From the NCBI GenBank assembly GCA_947173495.1, contig CAMWFQ010000001.1:124001-188000 (forward strand): a stretch of 64,000 nucleotides of DNA. The letters run 5' to 3'. The position numbers and the translations under genes were made by a program. Source of the stretch: an uncultured Lachnospiraceae bacterium. Its GTDB lineage: Bacteria > Bacillota > Clostridia > Lachnospirales > Lachnospiraceae. Every line of letters starts with the position of its first letter. Position 1 is the first letter of the stretch. This document shows positions 10,097 to 63,920 of the stretch, piece by piece. Below the pieces are notes generated by a model, which did not search any database, was not told where the DNA came from, and saw only the letters and a program-made list of their open reading frames with translations.

Positions 10097-11404
10097 CTAT
10101 TCCTGTTCCCACCTCACCACATCTCCCATTTGAATCTCCCGGGTGGCGGATGTGATGATGTTGCTGTCCTTATCTACTGTCCCCTCCTCCAGCGCGGCCC
10201 AGGTGTCATTTTTGTCCGCAACCCGGACCGTTACTTCCTCCACATAATATTCTTCTCCCAGGATCCCTTCTCTCTCCCTGAGCACCCAGACATAGTTCCT
10301 GTCGTTTTCCGTCTTTAATGCTGAAAGAGGAATACAGAGCTTTTGCTTCTCTCCCCTTTCGCTGCGGGAAAGAGTGCCAGACATTCCCGGGATACCTTCT
10401 CCTTCCGGCAGGCTGAGCCACGCTTCATAGCTTCCGGCACTGCTTCTGCTCTCTGACAGATAATCTATTTCTTCCTCCAGTCCTCTGCTTTTGCCCTCCA
10501 GCTTCACAGAAACTTCATCTCCCAGCCCCACATATTTTTTCTGTTCCTTATCCAGCACCACCTTCAGCTGGCAGGGCAGGCTTTCGTCGGAAATCAAAAG
10601 CACGGCGGATTCCGGTACGATCTGTCCCACTCCGGTTATGATTTCCGTGACCACCCCGCCAAAAGGCGACGTCACCACTCCCTGGTGTTCCTGGACCTGT
10701 TTCAGCTCCTGCAGGTCTGCAGAAAGGGTCTCCCTCTCCAGCTTTGCCACTGCAAGCTCGGATGCCTCTTCCTCCGGAAGAAGTATGTCCTCCACCTTTC
10801 TTCCGGCTTCCTTCACCGCCTGATCCCGCTCCGCTTTGGCATCCGCCTCTCCGTAGGCGGCGCTCTGCAGGGCATTTTTAAGCTCCTTATCCCCCTCCTC
10901 CGATCCTCCCTCTTCCTCCAGTTCCCGCTCCGCCCGGGCATAGCTTTCCGCCGCCCGTCCCACCTGGGTATCCCTGATTCTGGCGGTCATATCATAGTCT
11001 TCTCTGGCCCTGGCGAGCTCCAGCTCCTTTTTCTGCCTGGCCAGCTCCTGATTTTCCAGAATCGTATCGATCTGGAGAGACAGCCTGGCGATTTCCGTAT
11101 TCCTTGCCTCTGTTTTTTCCTCCAGATCCTTCAGGTCGATGCGAAACAGCTCATCTCCCTCTTCCACCCGGTCGCCCACCTGAACGCTCATGGCCTCGAT
11201 CCGCAGGCCCGGCAGATATGTGACGGGCCGCTCGCCTCCCGCCACTATGATTCCTTCCGCTTCTACCCTGTGTTCCACATATTTCGTTTCCGGCACGCAG
11301 GTGCTCACCATGGGAAGGCGGTAGGCATAAATGCTTTTCGACACCAGTGTGCAGATCAGCATGCCTGTTAAAAAAGCCGCAAATCCGGCTGCAATCTTTT
11401 TCAT
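10097..11404 (-). CDS. HlyD/RND-type membrane fusion (efflux adaptor) protein
   Basis: 435 residues. ATG at 11404 with TGGAGGAACC just upstream (GGAGG, 4 nt). A single N-terminal membrane segment (4-27) anchors an extracytoplasmic chain: a first biotinyl-lipoyl half (GLRIEAMSVQVGDRVEEGDELFRID), a long Glu/Lys/Arg-rich coiled coil (about 95-225), the second lipoyl half (VVTSPFGGVVTEIITGVGQIV), then beta-barrel domains. Such proteins work with ABC or RND exporters. Here it is the last gene of an operon with two sugar-importer-type permeases and a binding lipoprotein, and no exporter is adjacent, so its partner is unclear. A repeat array fills the gap to the preceding gene. Confidence 0.8.
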   Translation of the reverse strand: MKKIAAGFAAFLTGMLICTLVSKSIYAYRLPMVSTCVPETKYVEHRVEAEGIIVAGGERPVTYLPGLRIEAMSVQVGDRVEEGDELFRIDLKDLEEKTEARNTEIARLSLQIDTILENQELARQKKELELARAREDYDMTARIRDTQVGRAAESYARAERELEEEGGSEEGDKELKNALQSAAYGEADAKAERDQAVKEAGRKVEDILLPEEEASELAVAKLERETLSADLQELKQVQEHQGVVTSPFGGVVTEIITGVGQIVPESAVLLISDESLPCQLKVVLDKEQKKYVGLGDEVSVKLEGKSRGLEEEIDYLSESRSSAGSYEAWLSLPEGEGIPGMSGTLSRSERGEKQKLCIPLSALKTENDRNYVWVLREREGILGEEYYVEEVTVRVADKNDTWAALEEGTVDKDSNIITSATREIQMGDVVRWEQE

Positions 11405-11412
11405 GGTTCCTC

Positions 11413-11682
11413 CATTCCAGTTCCGCTTTGATTCCAGTTCCGCTTTGATTCCAGTTCCGCAGACATCCTTCGGGGCGCCTTCACCTGGCCCGGTTTCCGG
11501 TCATTTTCTATGCCCGTAAACTGGGCCGCGCCCACTCCGGAAGTCTGCTGTTTTTTTATTCCAGTTCCGCAGACATCCTTCGGTACACCTTTGTCTGGCG
11601 GATTTTCCGGTCATATTCTATGCCCGGAAAACCCGCCGTGCACGCTCCGAATGTCTGCTGTTTTTTTATTCCAGTTCCGCAG
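11413..11682 (-). repeat. Array of structured hairpin repeats, locus 1 (two full units)
   Basis: Two 90-nt hairpin units (11459-11548 and 11569-11658, period 110) joined by TGTTTTTTTATTCCAGTTCC. Partial ends remain: 17-bp direct repeats ATTCCAGTTCCGCTTTG at 11414-11447, and CAGTTCCGCAG at 11672-11682. Each unit folds almost end to end (GCAGAC/GTCTGC outside, GGGCGC/GCGCCC or GTACAC/GTGCAC inside, then a 10-14-bp arm and a CGGTCAT...ATGCCCG tip). The array fills the gap between the permease stop (11687) and the HlyD-like start. It belongs to the same family as 60131-60627. Confidence 0.85.
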
Positions 11683-59441: not shown

Positions 59442-60107
59442 TCAGTCCAAAACCGTCCTTTTATCCACTAAAAACACAGGCTCTATCACAAGGAAATTCT
59501 CGCCTCCCGCCTTCCTTCTGTCAAAATGGCTCTCCGGATCCACCGCCATCCAGCCTTTCAGGGCCTGAGAGATGGACTGATCATCCCCCCGCAGATTTAC
59601 GTTAGTTCTGGGCTCCTCATAATAGGAAAAAAGGATGTTTTCATGGAGCGCAATGCACTGGTATTTATCTCCGGCATGAATCCCCTCGTCCACGATCGCC
59701 TTGTGCCAGTAGGTATAGGAAAAAAGCTTCTCCGGGTACAGGAAGGCGATCCGTCCCACCTTCGTCTTCTCTCCCGCTCTCTCCGCCTCCCATTTCAGAG
59801 GCTCGTCAGGCAGAGCATGATGAAAAATGTGATACATGTAAGCCCAGGGCGTTTTTCCATCTTCCTCCGGCCAGCTTTCCAGAAAGGGCGTAAGCTCCGG
59901 AAGGAACTGTTCCGGTTTCATTCCCGGCTCCAGAGCTTCATAATATAAAAAGCACATCTGCCGGTAACGGTAGAGGCAGACGCACAAAAGCTCTCCCTCC
60001 CTGATTCTTCTCTGTGCAGATTTCCGCGCCTGATCAACCGCCCTTTGAAGCGCTTCCTCCGATCCGCCTTCCTTCAGACATCCTCTGTACTGCTCTCTTA
60101 TAATCAT
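59442..60107 (-). CDS. Hypothetical protein of the pectin locus
   Basis: 221 residues; ATG 60107 with AGGAG 6 nt upstream. Soluble, mixed alpha/beta, no signal peptide. Distinctive segments: CLYRYRQMCFLYYEAL, WAYMYHIFHHALPDEPLKWE, RIAFLYPEKLFSYTYWHKAI and FLVIEPVFLVDKR. I do not recognise the family. It sits between the deacetylase-like gene and the AraC regulator in the same orientation. A five-unit hairpin repeat array fills the whole gap upstream of it. Confidence 0.6.
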   Translation of the reverse strand: MIIREQYRGCLKEGGSEEALQRAVDQARKSAQRRIREGELLCVCLYRYRQMCFLYYEALEPGMKPEQFLPELTPFLESWPEEDGKTPWAYMYHIFHHALPDEPLKWEAERAGEKTKVGRIAFLYPEKLFSYTYWHKAIVDEGIHAGDKYQCIALHENILFSYYEEPRTNVNLRGDDQSISQALKGWMAVDPESHFDRRKAGGENFLVIEPVFLVDKRTVLD

Positions 60108-60130
60108 ATTTTTCTCCTATTTATAGTTCC

Positions 60131-60627
60131 GCAGCCCTCCTTCGGTACACCCTGATCTGGAATAAACTACGGTCATGTCCCATGCACGTAGTTCATTCCG
60201 TGTACCTTCGGACGGCTGCTGTTTTCAGTTCCGCAGCCCTCCTTCAGTGCGCCTTGATCTGGCATGAATTCCGGTCATCTTCCATGCCCGTAATTCATGC
60301 CGCGCACTTTCGGATGGCTGCTGTTTTCAGTTCCGCAGCCCTCCTTCGGTACACCCTGATCTGGAATGAACTTCGGTCATGTCCCATGCACGTAGTTCAT
60401 TCCGTGTACCTTCGGACGGCTGCTGTTTTCAGTTCCGCAGCCCTCCTTCAGTGCGCCTTGATCTGGCATGAATTCCGGTCATCTTCCATGCCCGTAATTC
60501 ATGCCGCGCACTTTCGGATGGCTGCTGTTTTCAGTTCCGCAGCCCTCCTTCGGTACACCCTGATCTGGAATGAACTTCGGTCATGTCCCATGCACGTAGT
60601 TCATTCCGTGTACCTTCGGACGGCTGC
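60131..60627 (-). repeat. Array of structured hairpin repeats, locus 2 (five units, A-B-A-B-A)
   Basis: Units of 89 nt at 60131-60219, 60233-60321, 60335-60423, 60437-60525 and 60539-60627, exact period 102, joined by TGTTTTCAGTTCC. Units 1, 3 and 5 (type A) have GTACAC/GTGTAC and GGAATGAAC/GTTCATTCC arms. Units 2 and 4 (type B) have GTGCGC/GCGCAC and GGCATGAATT/AATTCATGCC. The outer stem GCAGCC/GGCTGC, the CCTTC boxes and the CGGTCAT...ATGC tip are kept. The array fills the gap exactly, from the deacetylase-like stop (60631) to the leader of the next gene. Same family as 11413-11682. Confidence 0.9.
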
Positions 60628-60630
60628 TGT

Positions 60631-61425
60631 TTATAATTCCACCGTTTTGCCGCCCGGAATCTCCATGATCTCATTATCTGCCTGGATCCAGACGCTCTGT
60701 GCGCCGGGATTGTAAACCAGATCCCCATCCGCCGTAAATTTCAGATTATGTGCCGCCTTCATATAATCCACGATTTCTATATTAGCGGCATACCAGATAT
60801 CGTCCCTGCCTCCCATCATGCGGCAGAAATCCTCTATCAGACTCCAGTTTTCATCCTGGGTAAATTCATAGCTGTGTCCCCATACGTACATCATGTACAG
60901 ATACTGGGTCTTGTTAAGCTCGCAGAATCTCTCTCCGTTCTCTATGAGTCTGTGGTTGTGATGGCAGGTAGCCTTCCAGGTCAGGTAATTTTCCGGCATG
61001 GCAAAGTCGTCCGTATCTCCCACTACCCGGCAGTACTCTATGCCCACCCCCGGAAGAAGACGCACAATCTCTTCATTATAAGAGCCATTGGGATAGGACA
61101 TGCCGCGCACCGGATATCCTGCAATCTTTTCCAGCCTTCTGCGGTCCTCCAGCACCTGCAGCGCCACATGCGGAATGGGACAGCGGGCAATGGTGGGATG
61201 GGTCAGCGTATGGCAGGAGATCTCATGCCCCTGATACAGCGCCTTCCATTCCTCTGCAGGAATCCTTCTGGGATCCTTGATGCCGGAATTCAGATGAAAG
61301 GTCCCTTTGATGCCATATCGGTTGAAGATTTCCACCAGCCTGCGGTCTTCCTCTCTCCCATCGTCATAGCTCATGGTCAGTACTTTGTGCTTTCCGCCCG
61401 GGAAGCAGATGTATATTGTTCTCAT
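60631..61425 (-). CDS. Polysaccharide deacetylase family protein (NodB-like)
   Basis: 264 residues from ATG 61425 (MRTIYICFPGGKHKVLTM) with AGGAGG 9 nt upstream; the longer frame lacks a site. NodB motifs: LTMSYDDGREED (catalytic and metal Asp), GHEISCHTLTHPTIARC (metal His-x-x-x-His), RGMSYPNGSYNEE. No signal peptide, so it is cytoplasmic and may act on acetylated oligosaccharides rather than on peptidoglycan. The stop is followed directly by the hairpin array. Confidence 0.87.
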   Translation of the reverse strand: MRTIYICFPGGKHKVLTMSYDDGREEDRRLVEIFNRYGIKGTFHLNSGIKDPRRIPAEEWKALYQGHEISCHTLTHPTIARCPIPHVALQVLEDRRRLEKIAGYPVRGMSYPNGSYNEEIVRLLPGVGIEYCRVVGDTDDFAMPENYLTWKATCHHNHRLIENGERFCELNKTQYLYMMYVWGHSYEFTQDENWSLIEDFCRMMGGRDDIWYAANIEIVDYMKAAHNLKFTADGDLVYNPGAQSVWIQADNEIMEIPGGKTVEL

Positions 61426-61787
61426 ATGGTAAGTCCTCCTGTTTTCTCTAATAAGACTATTGTAGCAGAGAAATGAGGGGATGTACATAAAATATGTTGA
61501 CAGCAGACTGTGGGTATGTCACGATAAGGGTGCTTTTCAGAAGTTTGGCCGAAAGGGCGCCCGGACAGGTGTTAATTTCTGCGTCGCCCCGCTTTCGCTC
61601 GACAAAAACGTAGCAGTACCAGGCTCGAAAAAACCTCGCCAGGTGCTGACGTTTTTGAACGGGCTCCTTCAGAAATTAACACCTGTCCGGGCTACAGTTC
61701 TGGCAGGCCTTCGGAAAGGTAACCGCTATAGGTGCCACACAAAATTGAAACGATATCGCCTCAGGCAGGAAGGAAGATACGTCTGAT
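61426..61787. other. 362-bp divergent intergenic region, mostly occupied by the inverted-repeat element
   Basis: It must contain promoters for the deacetylase-like gene (minus) and the Nudix gene (plus). TTGACA at 61498-61503 is a possible -35 on plus but has no good -10. The rest is the inverted-repeat element at 61533-61691. Confidence 0.5.
61533..61691. repeat. MITE-like element with perfect 22-bp inverted repeats
   Basis: Positions 61560-61581 are the exact inverse of 61670-61691 (the arm contains CCGGACAGGTGTTAATTTC). Inside is a second pair, CAAAAACGT/ACGTTTTTG (61602-61655). The left flank from 61533 matches 40568-40614. It lies between the divergent deacetylase-like and Nudix genes. 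No coding capacity is seen. Confidence 0.75.
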
Positions 61788-62387: not shown

Positions 62388-63920
62388 ATGACCATAGAAG
62401 AAGTATTGGCATTTGAAGAAATGCAGATATTTGATCGAAAGAGTATTAATATTGATCCGAAAGCGTTGGCAATACCAATTATAGCATTTGCAAATGCTGA
62501 TGGTGGAACAATTGCGATTGGGATATCCGATAAAACGCGTAGAATAGAGGGTGTAGATTATGATATTGGGAAATTAAACGAGCTTCTTCGGGTACCATTT
62601 GATTTTTGTATTCCGACTGTAAAGGTTGAAATAGAAAAAATACAGTGCACAGATTTTAAAGATAGAAAGAACCATGTACTTTTGATGCATATAGAGCCGA
62701 GTATGGAAGTACATGCAAATCAAGCAGATGAAGTTTTTATGCGTGTGGGAGATAAATCCAAGCGACTTACATTTGAAGAACGTATGCAGCTGATGTATGA
62801 CAAGGGGGAAAGATTTTTTGAGGACAAACCGGTTCCTGAAGCAGATATAGAAGACATTGACTTGGGTTTTGTAAAAAATTACATTGATCAAATTGGTTAT
62901 TCCAAGACCCCTATGGAATATTTAAGAGAAAATAAAGGATTTGTAAAAGAGAAGAATGGGGAAGTACAGATCAGTTCAGCTGCGATATTATTGTTCGGGA
63001 AAAATCCGCAATTATATTTTCCCAGAGCCCGCGTACGCTTTATCCGCTATGAAGGCACAGAGGAACGTGTCGGTGCAGAGATGAATGTAATTAAGGATGT
63101 TATTTTTGAAGGAACTATATTGAAGATGATAACGGATGCTGTCGCATATTTGGATACACAGATTAAAGAGAAAACATATTTAGGGGAAGACGGACGATTT
63201 GTAAAAGAAGAGGAGTATCCGAAATTTGTCCGACAGGAAATTATTGTAAATGCTGTTACACATCGTGACTACAGTATTCGTGGAACGGATATTCAAATAA
63301 AGATGTTTGATGAAAGGATTGTTGTAGAAAGTCCCGGAAAATTGCCGGGGCTTGTGAAGACAAATAATATCCGGCATACACATTTTTCAAGAAATCCTAA
63401 AATTGCGGAATTTTTGAAAGCATATAGCTTTGTAAAAGAATATGGTGAGGGTGTTGACCGGATGTGGAAAGAACTTGAAGCGATTGGTTTGCAGGGACCG
63501 GAATATAGAATGAACGCCTTTATGCTGCAGACTATAATTAGAAATAATGCTTTATTTGAAAGCAAACCACGGTTTGAACAGGAAAACCACGGTTTGCTCG
63601 CTGAAAAACCACGGTTTGAGCAGGAAAACCACGGTTTGCCCGCTGAAAAACCACGGTTTGAATCCAAAGAATCACTGTTTCAGATTATTGACAATGCAGT
63701 ATCCAGGAAAGAATTAACTCCTGTCATTGCAGGAAATGTAAAAAAAGTGATAGAAAAATTTGATTTACATCAGATTTTTGGCAGGAAAGAAATTAAAAAG
63801 GAATTAGGATTTGGAGATTATAAAGCAGGGAAAGCGATTGAAGCAATGCAGTCATTAAACCTCATAATACCCGTAGCGGGTAAGGGTAAGGGCAAATATA
63901 TTTTAAAAGAGATGCAGTAA
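62388..63920 (+). CDS. AlbA_2/Schlafen-type ATP-binding protein with internal repeats
   Basis: 510 residues. N-terminal AlbA_2 domain (AFEEMQIFDRKSI; IIAFANADGGTIAIGISD), central region with LLFGKNPQLYFPRARVRFIRY, a HATPase_c_4 segment (RQEIIVNAVTHRDYSIRGTD; EYGEGVDRMWKEL) and a C-terminal winged-helix-like part. The linker at about 390-425 contains KPRFEQENHGLLAE repeated. Relatives are annotated as transcriptional regulators or RecG-like and sometimes occur in defence contexts; the function is uncertain. The gene is clearly AT-richer than its neighbours, a sign of transfer. Confidence 0.82.
   Translation: MTIEEVLAFEEMQIFDRKSINIDPKALAIPIIAFANADGGTIAIGISDKTRRIEGVDYDIGKLNELLRVPFDFCIPTVKVEIEKIQCTDFKDRKNHVLLMHIEPSMEVHANQADEVFMRVGDKSKRLTFEERMQLMYDKGERFFEDKPVPEADIEDIDLGFVKNYIDQIGYSKTPMEYLRENKGFVKEKNGEVQISSAAILLFGKNPQLYFPRARVRFIRYEGTEERVGAEMNVIKDVIFEGTILKMITDAVAYLDTQIKEKTYLGEDGRFVKEEEYPKFVRQEIIVNAVTHRDYSIRGTDIQIKMFDERIVVESPGKLPGLVKTNNIRHTHFSRNPKIAEFLKAYSFVKEYGEGVDRMWKELEAIGLQGPEYRMNAFMLQTIIRNNALFESKPRFEQENHGLLAEKPRFEQENHGLPAEKPRFESKESLFQIIDNAVSRKELTPVIAGNVKKVIEKFDLHQIFGRKEIKKELGFGDYKAGKAIEAMQSLNLIIPVAGKGKGKYILKEMQ
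63564..63660 (+). repeat. Five in-frame copies of palindromic AAACCACGGTTTG
   Basis: Copies at 63564, 63584, 63606, 63626 and 63648 alternate 20 and 22 bp apart (42-bp super-period, 14 residues). Each is a near-palindrome (AAACC..GGTTT). They encode the linker between the ATP-binding and winged-helix parts of the AlbA_2-type protein. Confidence 0.85.

Follow-up and report, generated by a model that had tools for sequence, protein, structure and literature searches.

The 64,000-nucleotide stretch of DNA analysed here, termed the window, stems from an uncultured Lachnospiraceae bacterium (contig CAMWFQ010000001.1, positions 124,001 to 188,000) and carries near 60 kb, on the minus strand, a tandem array of five hairpin-forming units. 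These belong to a repeat with dozens of copies in the same genome, which we class as a small structured interspersed repeat of a new family, and whose placement rule is unusual and quantifiable: the hairpins lie in sense orientation at a nearly fixed distance before the Shine-Dalgarno (SD) site of the downstream gene. With moderate confidence, the family is read as a non-autonomous, largely selfish repeat resembling the mycobacterial interspersed repetitive units (MIRU) and the BOX elements of Streptococcus pneumoniae, which would occupy, as a transcribed hairpin, the space from a stop codon to the following SD site. An earlier note on this DNA, made from the letters alone, had described the array; it lacked both the rule of placement (one orientation, some 9 nt ahead of the SD site) and the frequency of loci at which one of two sister species holds only a scar.

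Units, fold and strand of the array at 60 kb

The array consists of five head-to-tail units in the order A-B-A-B-A with consecutive spacings of 102, 102, 102 and 102 bp in the repeat search, and Tandem Repeats Finder (TRF) reported a period of 204 with 99% match at 60125-60632, the alternation of types being that of a duplicated A-B dimer. Both analyses agree with the alternating 102-bp array of the earlier note, and the joint change of the paired arms between types A and B, likewise claimed there, is seen in the sequence. On the minus strand, each unit reads AACAGC, hairpin, GCGGAACUNNAA, where the conserved stretch runs past the hairpin into the 3' single-stranded tail GCGGAACUNNAA. The features of the locus in transcription order are as follows:

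60631..61488, minus strand: upstream gene, polysaccharide deacetylase (PF01522), stop codon TAA at 60633-60631
60529..60631, minus strand: unit 1, type A, model match C1:184529-184631, first base shared with the last base of the upstream stop codon
60427..60529, minus strand: unit 2, type B, 117.1 bits
60325..60427, minus strand: unit 3, type A, model match C1:184325-184427
60223..60325, minus strand: unit 4, type B, 117.1 bits, folded
60121..60223, minus strand: unit 5, type A, model match C1:184121-184223, adjoins the SD site and has a G.U pair
60119..60128, minus strand: single-stranded tail AACTATAAAT between the hairpin end GCGG (60132-60129) and the SD site
60114..60118, minus strand: SD site AGGAG of the downstream gene
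59442..60107, minus strand: downstream gene, 221 amino acids, ATG at 60107, no Pfam match at E up to 0.001

That the array begins after the stop codon, as the earlier note had it, holds with an overlap of one base, the last of the TAA of gene 60631-61488; the gap between the genes is filled up to the SD site, not up to the gene start as had been stated. The odd pair in the unit counted first in that note (60125-60226) is a G.U pair on the minus strand, as proposed. Minus-strand folds of three units gave -49 to -52 kcal/mol, with z values of -7.1 to -9.3 against shuffles. A plus-strand open reading frame (ORF) runs through the array because 102 is divisible by 3; a coding or readable repeat was rejected, since unit spacings elsewhere vary (98-127) and the frame is thus not conserved.

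A long GC-containing hairpin between genes, followed on the plus strand of this array by TGTTTT, might suggest an ordinary transcription terminator or an attenuator array. This is scarcely credible here, as the transcribed strand has no U-run after the hairpin, a terminator scan flagged nothing in the array, and the T-run of the other strand is broken where a unit starts with ATCAGC.

A structure of 31 pairs, derived from one window unit, was tested on 25 units from the source genome and its relatives that had been aligned by sequence only (MAFFT) and from which the covariance models R1 and, later, R2 were built. In this alignment, 86.5% of cells were paired (72.3 after shuffling), 25 of the 31 pairs showed double changes (14.8 after shuffling), and the covariation score was 0.408, compared with 0.173 for shuffled and at most 0.116 for slid controls. 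A model alignment of 147 distinct units, taken from the best 150 of 157 matches and biased by being fitted to the structure, showed 90.9% paired cells, double changes in 30 of the 31 pairs (26.4 after shuffling; 3 of 500 shuffles as high) and a score of 0.635 versus 0.203 shuffled and at most 0.090 slid. The covariation that the earlier note had proposed to test in a larger alignment is strong already where sequence alone guided the alignment.

G.U cells numbered 182 and A.C cells 82 in the 147 units, where the column make-up predicts 505 and 449, and G.A mismatches were frequent (195), C.U mismatches scarce (9). The sense fold was the more stable one in 129 of the 147 units, with a mean difference of -5.4 kcal/mol; the strand signal is moderate because composition-matched shuffled units also prefer sense (110 of 147, -2.4 kcal/mol). 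A G-N-A/G-N-A internal loop (base frequencies 0.90, 0.90, 0.89 and 0.83) and a purine-rich 8-nt bulge are kept across units, and the mean major-base frequency is higher at unpaired (0.745) than at paired positions (0.688). Taken together, the G.U excess and the conserved purine loops moderately favour the transcribed (minus) strand, which, with the sense-fold comparison, speaks for the strand chosen in the earlier note.

The conclusion drawn there, that selection acts on the fold, was upheld in part. In its favour, covariation lies far above the shuffled and slid controls; it is not the sole reading, as template switching can also repair stems (PMC8794818). At shared loci of two near-sister species of the genus (G021 and G023), eleven unit comparisons revealed 15 pairs changed on both sides, 11 of them still paired, where 3.8 were expected; of the single stem changes, 20 preserved the pair and 18 disrupted it. 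Including two doubtful comparisons raises the pairs changed on both sides to 25 (20 still paired; 6.3 expected) and the single changes to 22 preserving and 23 disrupting ones. Double changes are thus in excess, while single changes break pairs about as often as they keep them. Stems tend to remain complementary over time, with each copy under weak constraint.

The same figures are compatible with covariation without function, in which template-switch correction of the quasi-palindrome keeps the arms of an inert repeat complementary; template switching can create and maintain stems (PMC8794818), both-changed pairs are in excess, and single changes look unconstrained. We consider this explanation unlikely, as the internal loop, the 8-nt bulge and the apical interruptions persist in the 147 units, where arm correction would tend to erase them, and G.U cells outnumber A.C cells. 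Template switching (PMC8794818) could contribute to the covariation.

Placement before the Shine-Dalgarno site

Placement was read for 96 arrays, taken from the window and from 80 fetched stretches that together cover eight genomes (28 arrays from the source genome and 68 from seven others, the latter picked from the stronger matches). By a simple rule, a sense ORF of at least 60 amino acids begins within 70 nt of the array end in 88 arrays, the other eight being cases of contig ends, inner units, short ORFs or unusual starts; none of the 96 arrays was seen in a convergent gap. A same-strand ORF, as called by the simple rule, lies upstream in 78 of the 90 assessable arrays (11 have an opposite-strand ORF, one has none), and 62 of these 78 ORFs are within 100 nt of the array, 37 within 30 nt.

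The hairpin is joined to the SD site by a conserved tail with the consensus AACUNNAA, which is near-invariant over 95 arrays (A 84, A 93, C 90, T 92, two variable bases, A 85, A 91). After the hairpin, a match of at least 5/6 to AGGAGG was found in 78 of 94 arrays (shuffled-tail mean 24.0, maximum 34), and in 71 of the 94 it lies 7-11 nt after the hairpin (mean 5.6, maximum 11), the control being 200 rounds in which the tails were shuffled from their seventh base onward. The covariance models hold no SD column, and the SD spacing is therefore not built in. The distance from SD site to start codon has a median of 7. The end of the hairpin falls about 9 nt short of the SD site and about 22-25 nt short of the start codon, which is roughly where the rear edge of the initiating ribosome is located. 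The folded unit should, by this inference, lie just behind the initiating ribosome.

In other genera and in named records, the tail followed by an SD-like stretch and ATG was recognised by eye in about 15 of the 18 units whose array end is in view. The pattern GCGGWACTGGAAT gave 36 hits in the source genome versus 0 for the reversed control; four hits are not beside model matches, two of them seemingly one unit shared by two contig ends, one a mini-unit before an SD site and one in apparent coding sequence.

The downstream genes are diverse, with 117 Pfam families in 88 proteins and none of these in more than four, and this functional diversity argues against a regulon. Among the junctions occupied are those of core operons, for example pgk-tpi, secA-prfB, crt-hbd and gltB-gltD (several names read from translated ends). 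Insulation of the SD site by the unit found no support: for the 74 of 96 arrays where it was computed, predicted SD accessibility was 0.533 with the unit, 0.552 without it (p 0.07) and 0.534 with a shuffled unit (p 0.65). Directly upstream of the arrays at L336 and L384, the same junction in two species, a terminator-like hairpin with a T-run was observed; the junction sits upstream of a glycosyl hydrolase family 2 gene, and since this hairpin precedes the units, the downstream gene may depend on read-through.

An enzyme of the Y1 type with a CTCCT-like target would yield a hairpin, a fixed motif and one orientation, and the present family has a hairpin, a fixed adjacent motif and a single orientation. 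The hairpin could accordingly have been selected as single-stranded DNA, in the manner of repetitive extragenic palindromic (REP) elements and their REP-associated tyrosine transposases (RAYT; Y1/HUH), with CCTCCT on the other strand of the SD side as target; the SD-side sequence as a transposase target would explain both orientation and exact abutment. We hold this to be quite improbable. The Y1 transposase (Y1_Tnp, PF01797) had 0 matches in the source genome, the one carrier searched, which has 59 matches of the repeat, while 5 of 14 control genomes were positive; the G.U excess and the conserved purine loops suit RNA at least as well.

Distribution and history of single loci

A BLAST-type search of the source genome (G000) returned 25 matches, and model R1 returned 59 at E up to 1, of which 54 with E of 1.4e-7 or better are full-length. 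In the stretches fetched from it, 28 arrays with 1-5 units each can be distinguished, a count in which two arrays may be one, as some are at contig ends (C1, C3, C18). Arrays or units were observed at the contig ends of C1, C3, C7, C17 and C18, the assemblies being seemingly broken by the family.

Of the 37 genomes of the genus, 11 (source genome included) have matches at E up to 0.01, and the distribution is bimodal, with 10-82 matches in eight genomes (source genome included), one match in three and none in 26. The family sample revealed matches at E up to 1e-4 in 8 of 299 genomes, again including the source genome and two by a single match; copy numbers there are minimum values, since scoring was confined to 13 candidates per genome. 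In the order and phylum samples, with 10 scored candidates per genome and stricter filters by which weak matches would be missed, the source genome was the single match among 392 and 398 genomes, respectively. A loose pattern fitted at least 80 loci in named records, mostly by chance; 40 of them were scanned with the model, and 10 of these hold a confident unit (E below 1e-9), the carriers including records titled Acetatifactor muris DSM 23669 and Bacterium 1XD8-76 as well as several genomes and metagenome-assembled genomes of Lachnospiraceae. The other 30, without a confident unit, are mostly chance matches of the pattern. Copies beyond the genome of origin, which the earlier note had made a test of the family, were thus found by the covariance-model search in seven more species of the genus, in family members and in named records. 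The repeat is scattered across a few genera of one bacterial family, Lachnospiraceae to judge from the titles of the matching records.

The phages and plasmids searched gave no match, and of 112 stretches in viral records that fit the loose pattern, 80 were scanned with the model, with a best E of 0.015; a phage or plasmid origin was rejected on these grounds. Rfam release 15 has no match in the whole window at gathering score and nothing in 60000-60750 at E up to 1, in line with the earlier note, which knew of no described element of this form. In the open-access full-text literature (coverage excludes subscription journals and preprints), no description of the repeat family was found.

Bimodal presence within the genus would also be expected if the unit were the operator of a dedicated RNA-binding protein or small RNA, with the GNA/GNA loop, the bulge and the AACUNNAA tail forming a recognition site that controls the translation of a scattered regulon in those species that keep the partner. 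The higher conservation of unpaired positions (0.745 vs 0.688), the loop bases at 0.83-0.90 and the near-invariant tail fit this as well. Yet no partner was identified, the downstream genes have no functional theme, and tandem copy number varies between sister species, so that we regard an operator as improbable.

Common units of the sister species G021 and G023 are 0.81-0.89 identical. Twenty further junctions of this pair were queried, of which one had no match in G023 and two were not located. The 17 read comprise 7 with full units in both species, 8 with only a scar (solo tail, remnant or truncated unit) in one of them and 2 that are empty in one. Seven junctions intact in G021 are intact in G023 in six cases and empty in one; for ten junctions intact in G023, which had been chosen for lack of an already seen common G021 unit, G021 holds one full-length unit, eight solo tails, remnants or truncated units, and one empty junction. 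A further five G023 junctions had already been found in common with G021 as full units. At the L378 junction, the G021 partner (L498) is one full-length unit (52.5 bits) and G023 has two; tandem copy number differs between the sister species.

Seven junctions are common to more distant species, with downstream proteins 79-97% identical. The best unit identity there is 0.48-0.68 (maxima over all units on both stretches), compared with baselines of 0.52 between genomes at large and 0.86 within an array. At the gltB-gltD junction, model matches are present in G000 and G025 only, among 30 genomes read, and their units are at most 0.48 identical, which, on the sequences at hand, would be best explained by separate insertions; in several non-carriers, stop codon and SD site nearly overlap. 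The gltD gene tree, which covers 30 genus members including 7 carriers, requires 4 gains or losses, at least 3 of them on well-supported branches.

At the same gltB-gltD junction of G005 (L460, G005:C11:74500-75400, about 500-760), another hairpin repeat (CGTAAGGAATCCTCCCATC...GATGGG.CCCTCCTTGCG plus AATAATTAAGGTAGCAC) is present in about three copies at the place where G000 and G025 carry the present family; it matches neither the present model nor, at gathering score, any Rfam family. A second hairpin type, AAGGAGGGACCCGCGAAGCGGGAGGATGCCTTA and variants, occurs in G021 and G023 (L356 near 2000, L501, L504), sometimes directly before a unit or its scar, with an SD-like AAGGAGG in its arm and no Rfam match.

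Inside the window, the two units beyond the 60-kb array, which bring the total to the seven named in the earlier note, form a second array. Its units have diverged and are followed by a repeat which holds the tail only:

11559..11662, minus strand: second array, unit 1, 108.5 bits
11449..11552, minus strand: second array, unit 2, 105.6 bits
11414..11460, minus strand: 17-bp repeat, 2.8 copies, which contains the tail GCGGAACTGGAAT but no hairpin and immediately precedes the SD site of gene 10100-11404

Two other tandem repeats were observed in the window, one with overlapping 12-, 18-, 36- and 60-bp periods at 841-1130, and one of 42 bp (94% match) at 63564-63662 within the ORF 62388-63920.

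The placement and history of the arrays bear on the main rival, a host role in mRNA processing or stability, which we regard as a tentative possibility clearly short of even. The sense-strand bias of the fold, the fixed SD distance together with the position inside operons, the core operon junctions occupied and the positions common to several species agree with it, as does stem-loop-based control of operon stoichiometry in Clostridium cellulolyticum (PMC4423207). It is opposed by the lack of the repeat in most species of the genus, at the gltB-gltD junction in particular, by the scars or empty sites in G021 at 9 of the 10 chosen G023 junctions (beside five more that are common full units), by the nearly equal numbers of single stem changes keeping and breaking pairs at common loci, and by the want of an enriched downstream gene class.

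Known systems and the reading of the family

MIRU are arranged in tandem, and the present family shares this trait, being tandem, interspersed and placed between co-directional genes (78/90 arrays). PMC12548453 describes MIRU as elements that seem to be mobile and that insert at start codons, where an internal ORF is coupled at -4 nt; the likeness extends to short repeats beside genes whose downstream translation is spared. The present family lacks the start-codon insertion with a 4-nt overlap of an internal ORF: it lies before the SD site, has no conserved ORF that was recognised (no systematic ORF test was made) and conserves a covarying hairpin and tail. In lifestyle, MIRU are the nearest parallel.

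BOX elements are built as boxA-boxB(n)-boxC. They have extensive secondary structure and variable numbers of tandem modules and are co-transcribed with genes (PMC3049150); interspersion, structure and variable module numbers are the points of likeness. In contrast, BOX favours convergent gaps, and the present family consists of one module type, placed in sense orientation ahead of an SD site; neither convergent-gap preference nor loose orientation is seen in it (88/96 arrays face a sense ORF). In architecture, BOX is the nearest parallel.

REP elements and bacterial interspersed mosaic elements (BIME) are many-copy intergenic hairpins in transcripts with units of 20-40 nt. They are alike in being many-copy intergenic hairpins inside transcripts, but the present unit is about 100 nt, strictly oriented and in a genome without a Y1 transposase match. 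Intergenic stem-loops are also found in the SRPS operons of clostridia, such as cip-cel of Clostridium cellulolyticum (PMC4423207); they are the model for a possible host role of the present family, in which, by contrast, the fixed relation is to the downstream SD site. The TAACTGA direct repeats of Beggiatoaceae lie within several nt upstream of the start codons of functionally diverse genes with a patchy taxonomy, and are thus similar in being start-codon-proximal, at diverse genes and patchily spread, but they are heptamers for which the abstract describes no common hairpin (PMC4679880). Integron attC sites were dropped as a candidate on the basis of end motifs only.

The selfish reading would work as follows. 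A unit of about 102 bp, without a recognised conserved gene, would by its position be transcribed within polycistronic mRNA, where the transcript would fold into a long hairpin with the G-N-A/G-N-A internal loop and the purine-rich bulge. The repeat would be mobile, entering in one orientation the interval that separates a stop codon from the following SD site; a folded insert there would leave the genes and the SD site usable, and its presence may be nearly neutral for the host. The observations favour a repeat that tolerates this one kind of site or is tolerated in it. Units would multiply locally via unequal recombination with each other and be lost via deletion between the short direct repeats flanking each hairpin, leaving solo tails and truncated units. 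The placement in register with the SD site and the scars of the sister species shift the weight towards a selfish repeat.

Several observations weigh against this reading. No resident mover was found: besides the missing Y1 transposase in the source genome, reverse transcriptase (PF00078) is absent from 5 of the 8 high-copy genomes; as it is not associated with carriers, a repeat borne by a group II intron or retroelement was rejected. No dated new insertion within a species was seen, and each sister difference could be a loss. No convincing target-site duplication was separable from the unit's own tail, and such a duplication was rejected, since the flank likeness around AACTNNAA is inseparable from remnants of neighbouring units. 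Carriers are clustered on the gltD tree beyond shuffled labels (5/500 shuffles as low), and vertical descent with loss explains part of the carrier pattern. The pneumococcal repeats BOX, RUP and SPRITE, which are interpreted as parasites, are over-represented in gaps of convergent genes (PMC3049150), opposite to the present family, whose placement may therefore equally reflect function. Finally, the conserved loops and tail suggest specific recognition.

Small interspersed repeats often occur where they are least harmful. The present family is the reverse, with dozens of long hairpins in translation-sensitive stretches of operons, in one orientation and one SD register; either ribosome-binding sites are the target of insertion, or the hairpin serves those mRNAs in some way. 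A more far-reaching and rather doubtful proposal is that of a repeat class which homes to ribosome-binding sites, inserting a sense-only hairpin of about 100 nt at a fixed distance before the SD site, possibly with a target on the SD side, and which in some lineages would have turned into a post-transcriptional module spread genome-wide over core operons and recognised by a dedicated RNA-binding factor. The patchy spread within one genus offers ready pairs of carriers and non-carriers, and the family could confound surveys of regulatory RNAs in gut bacteria.
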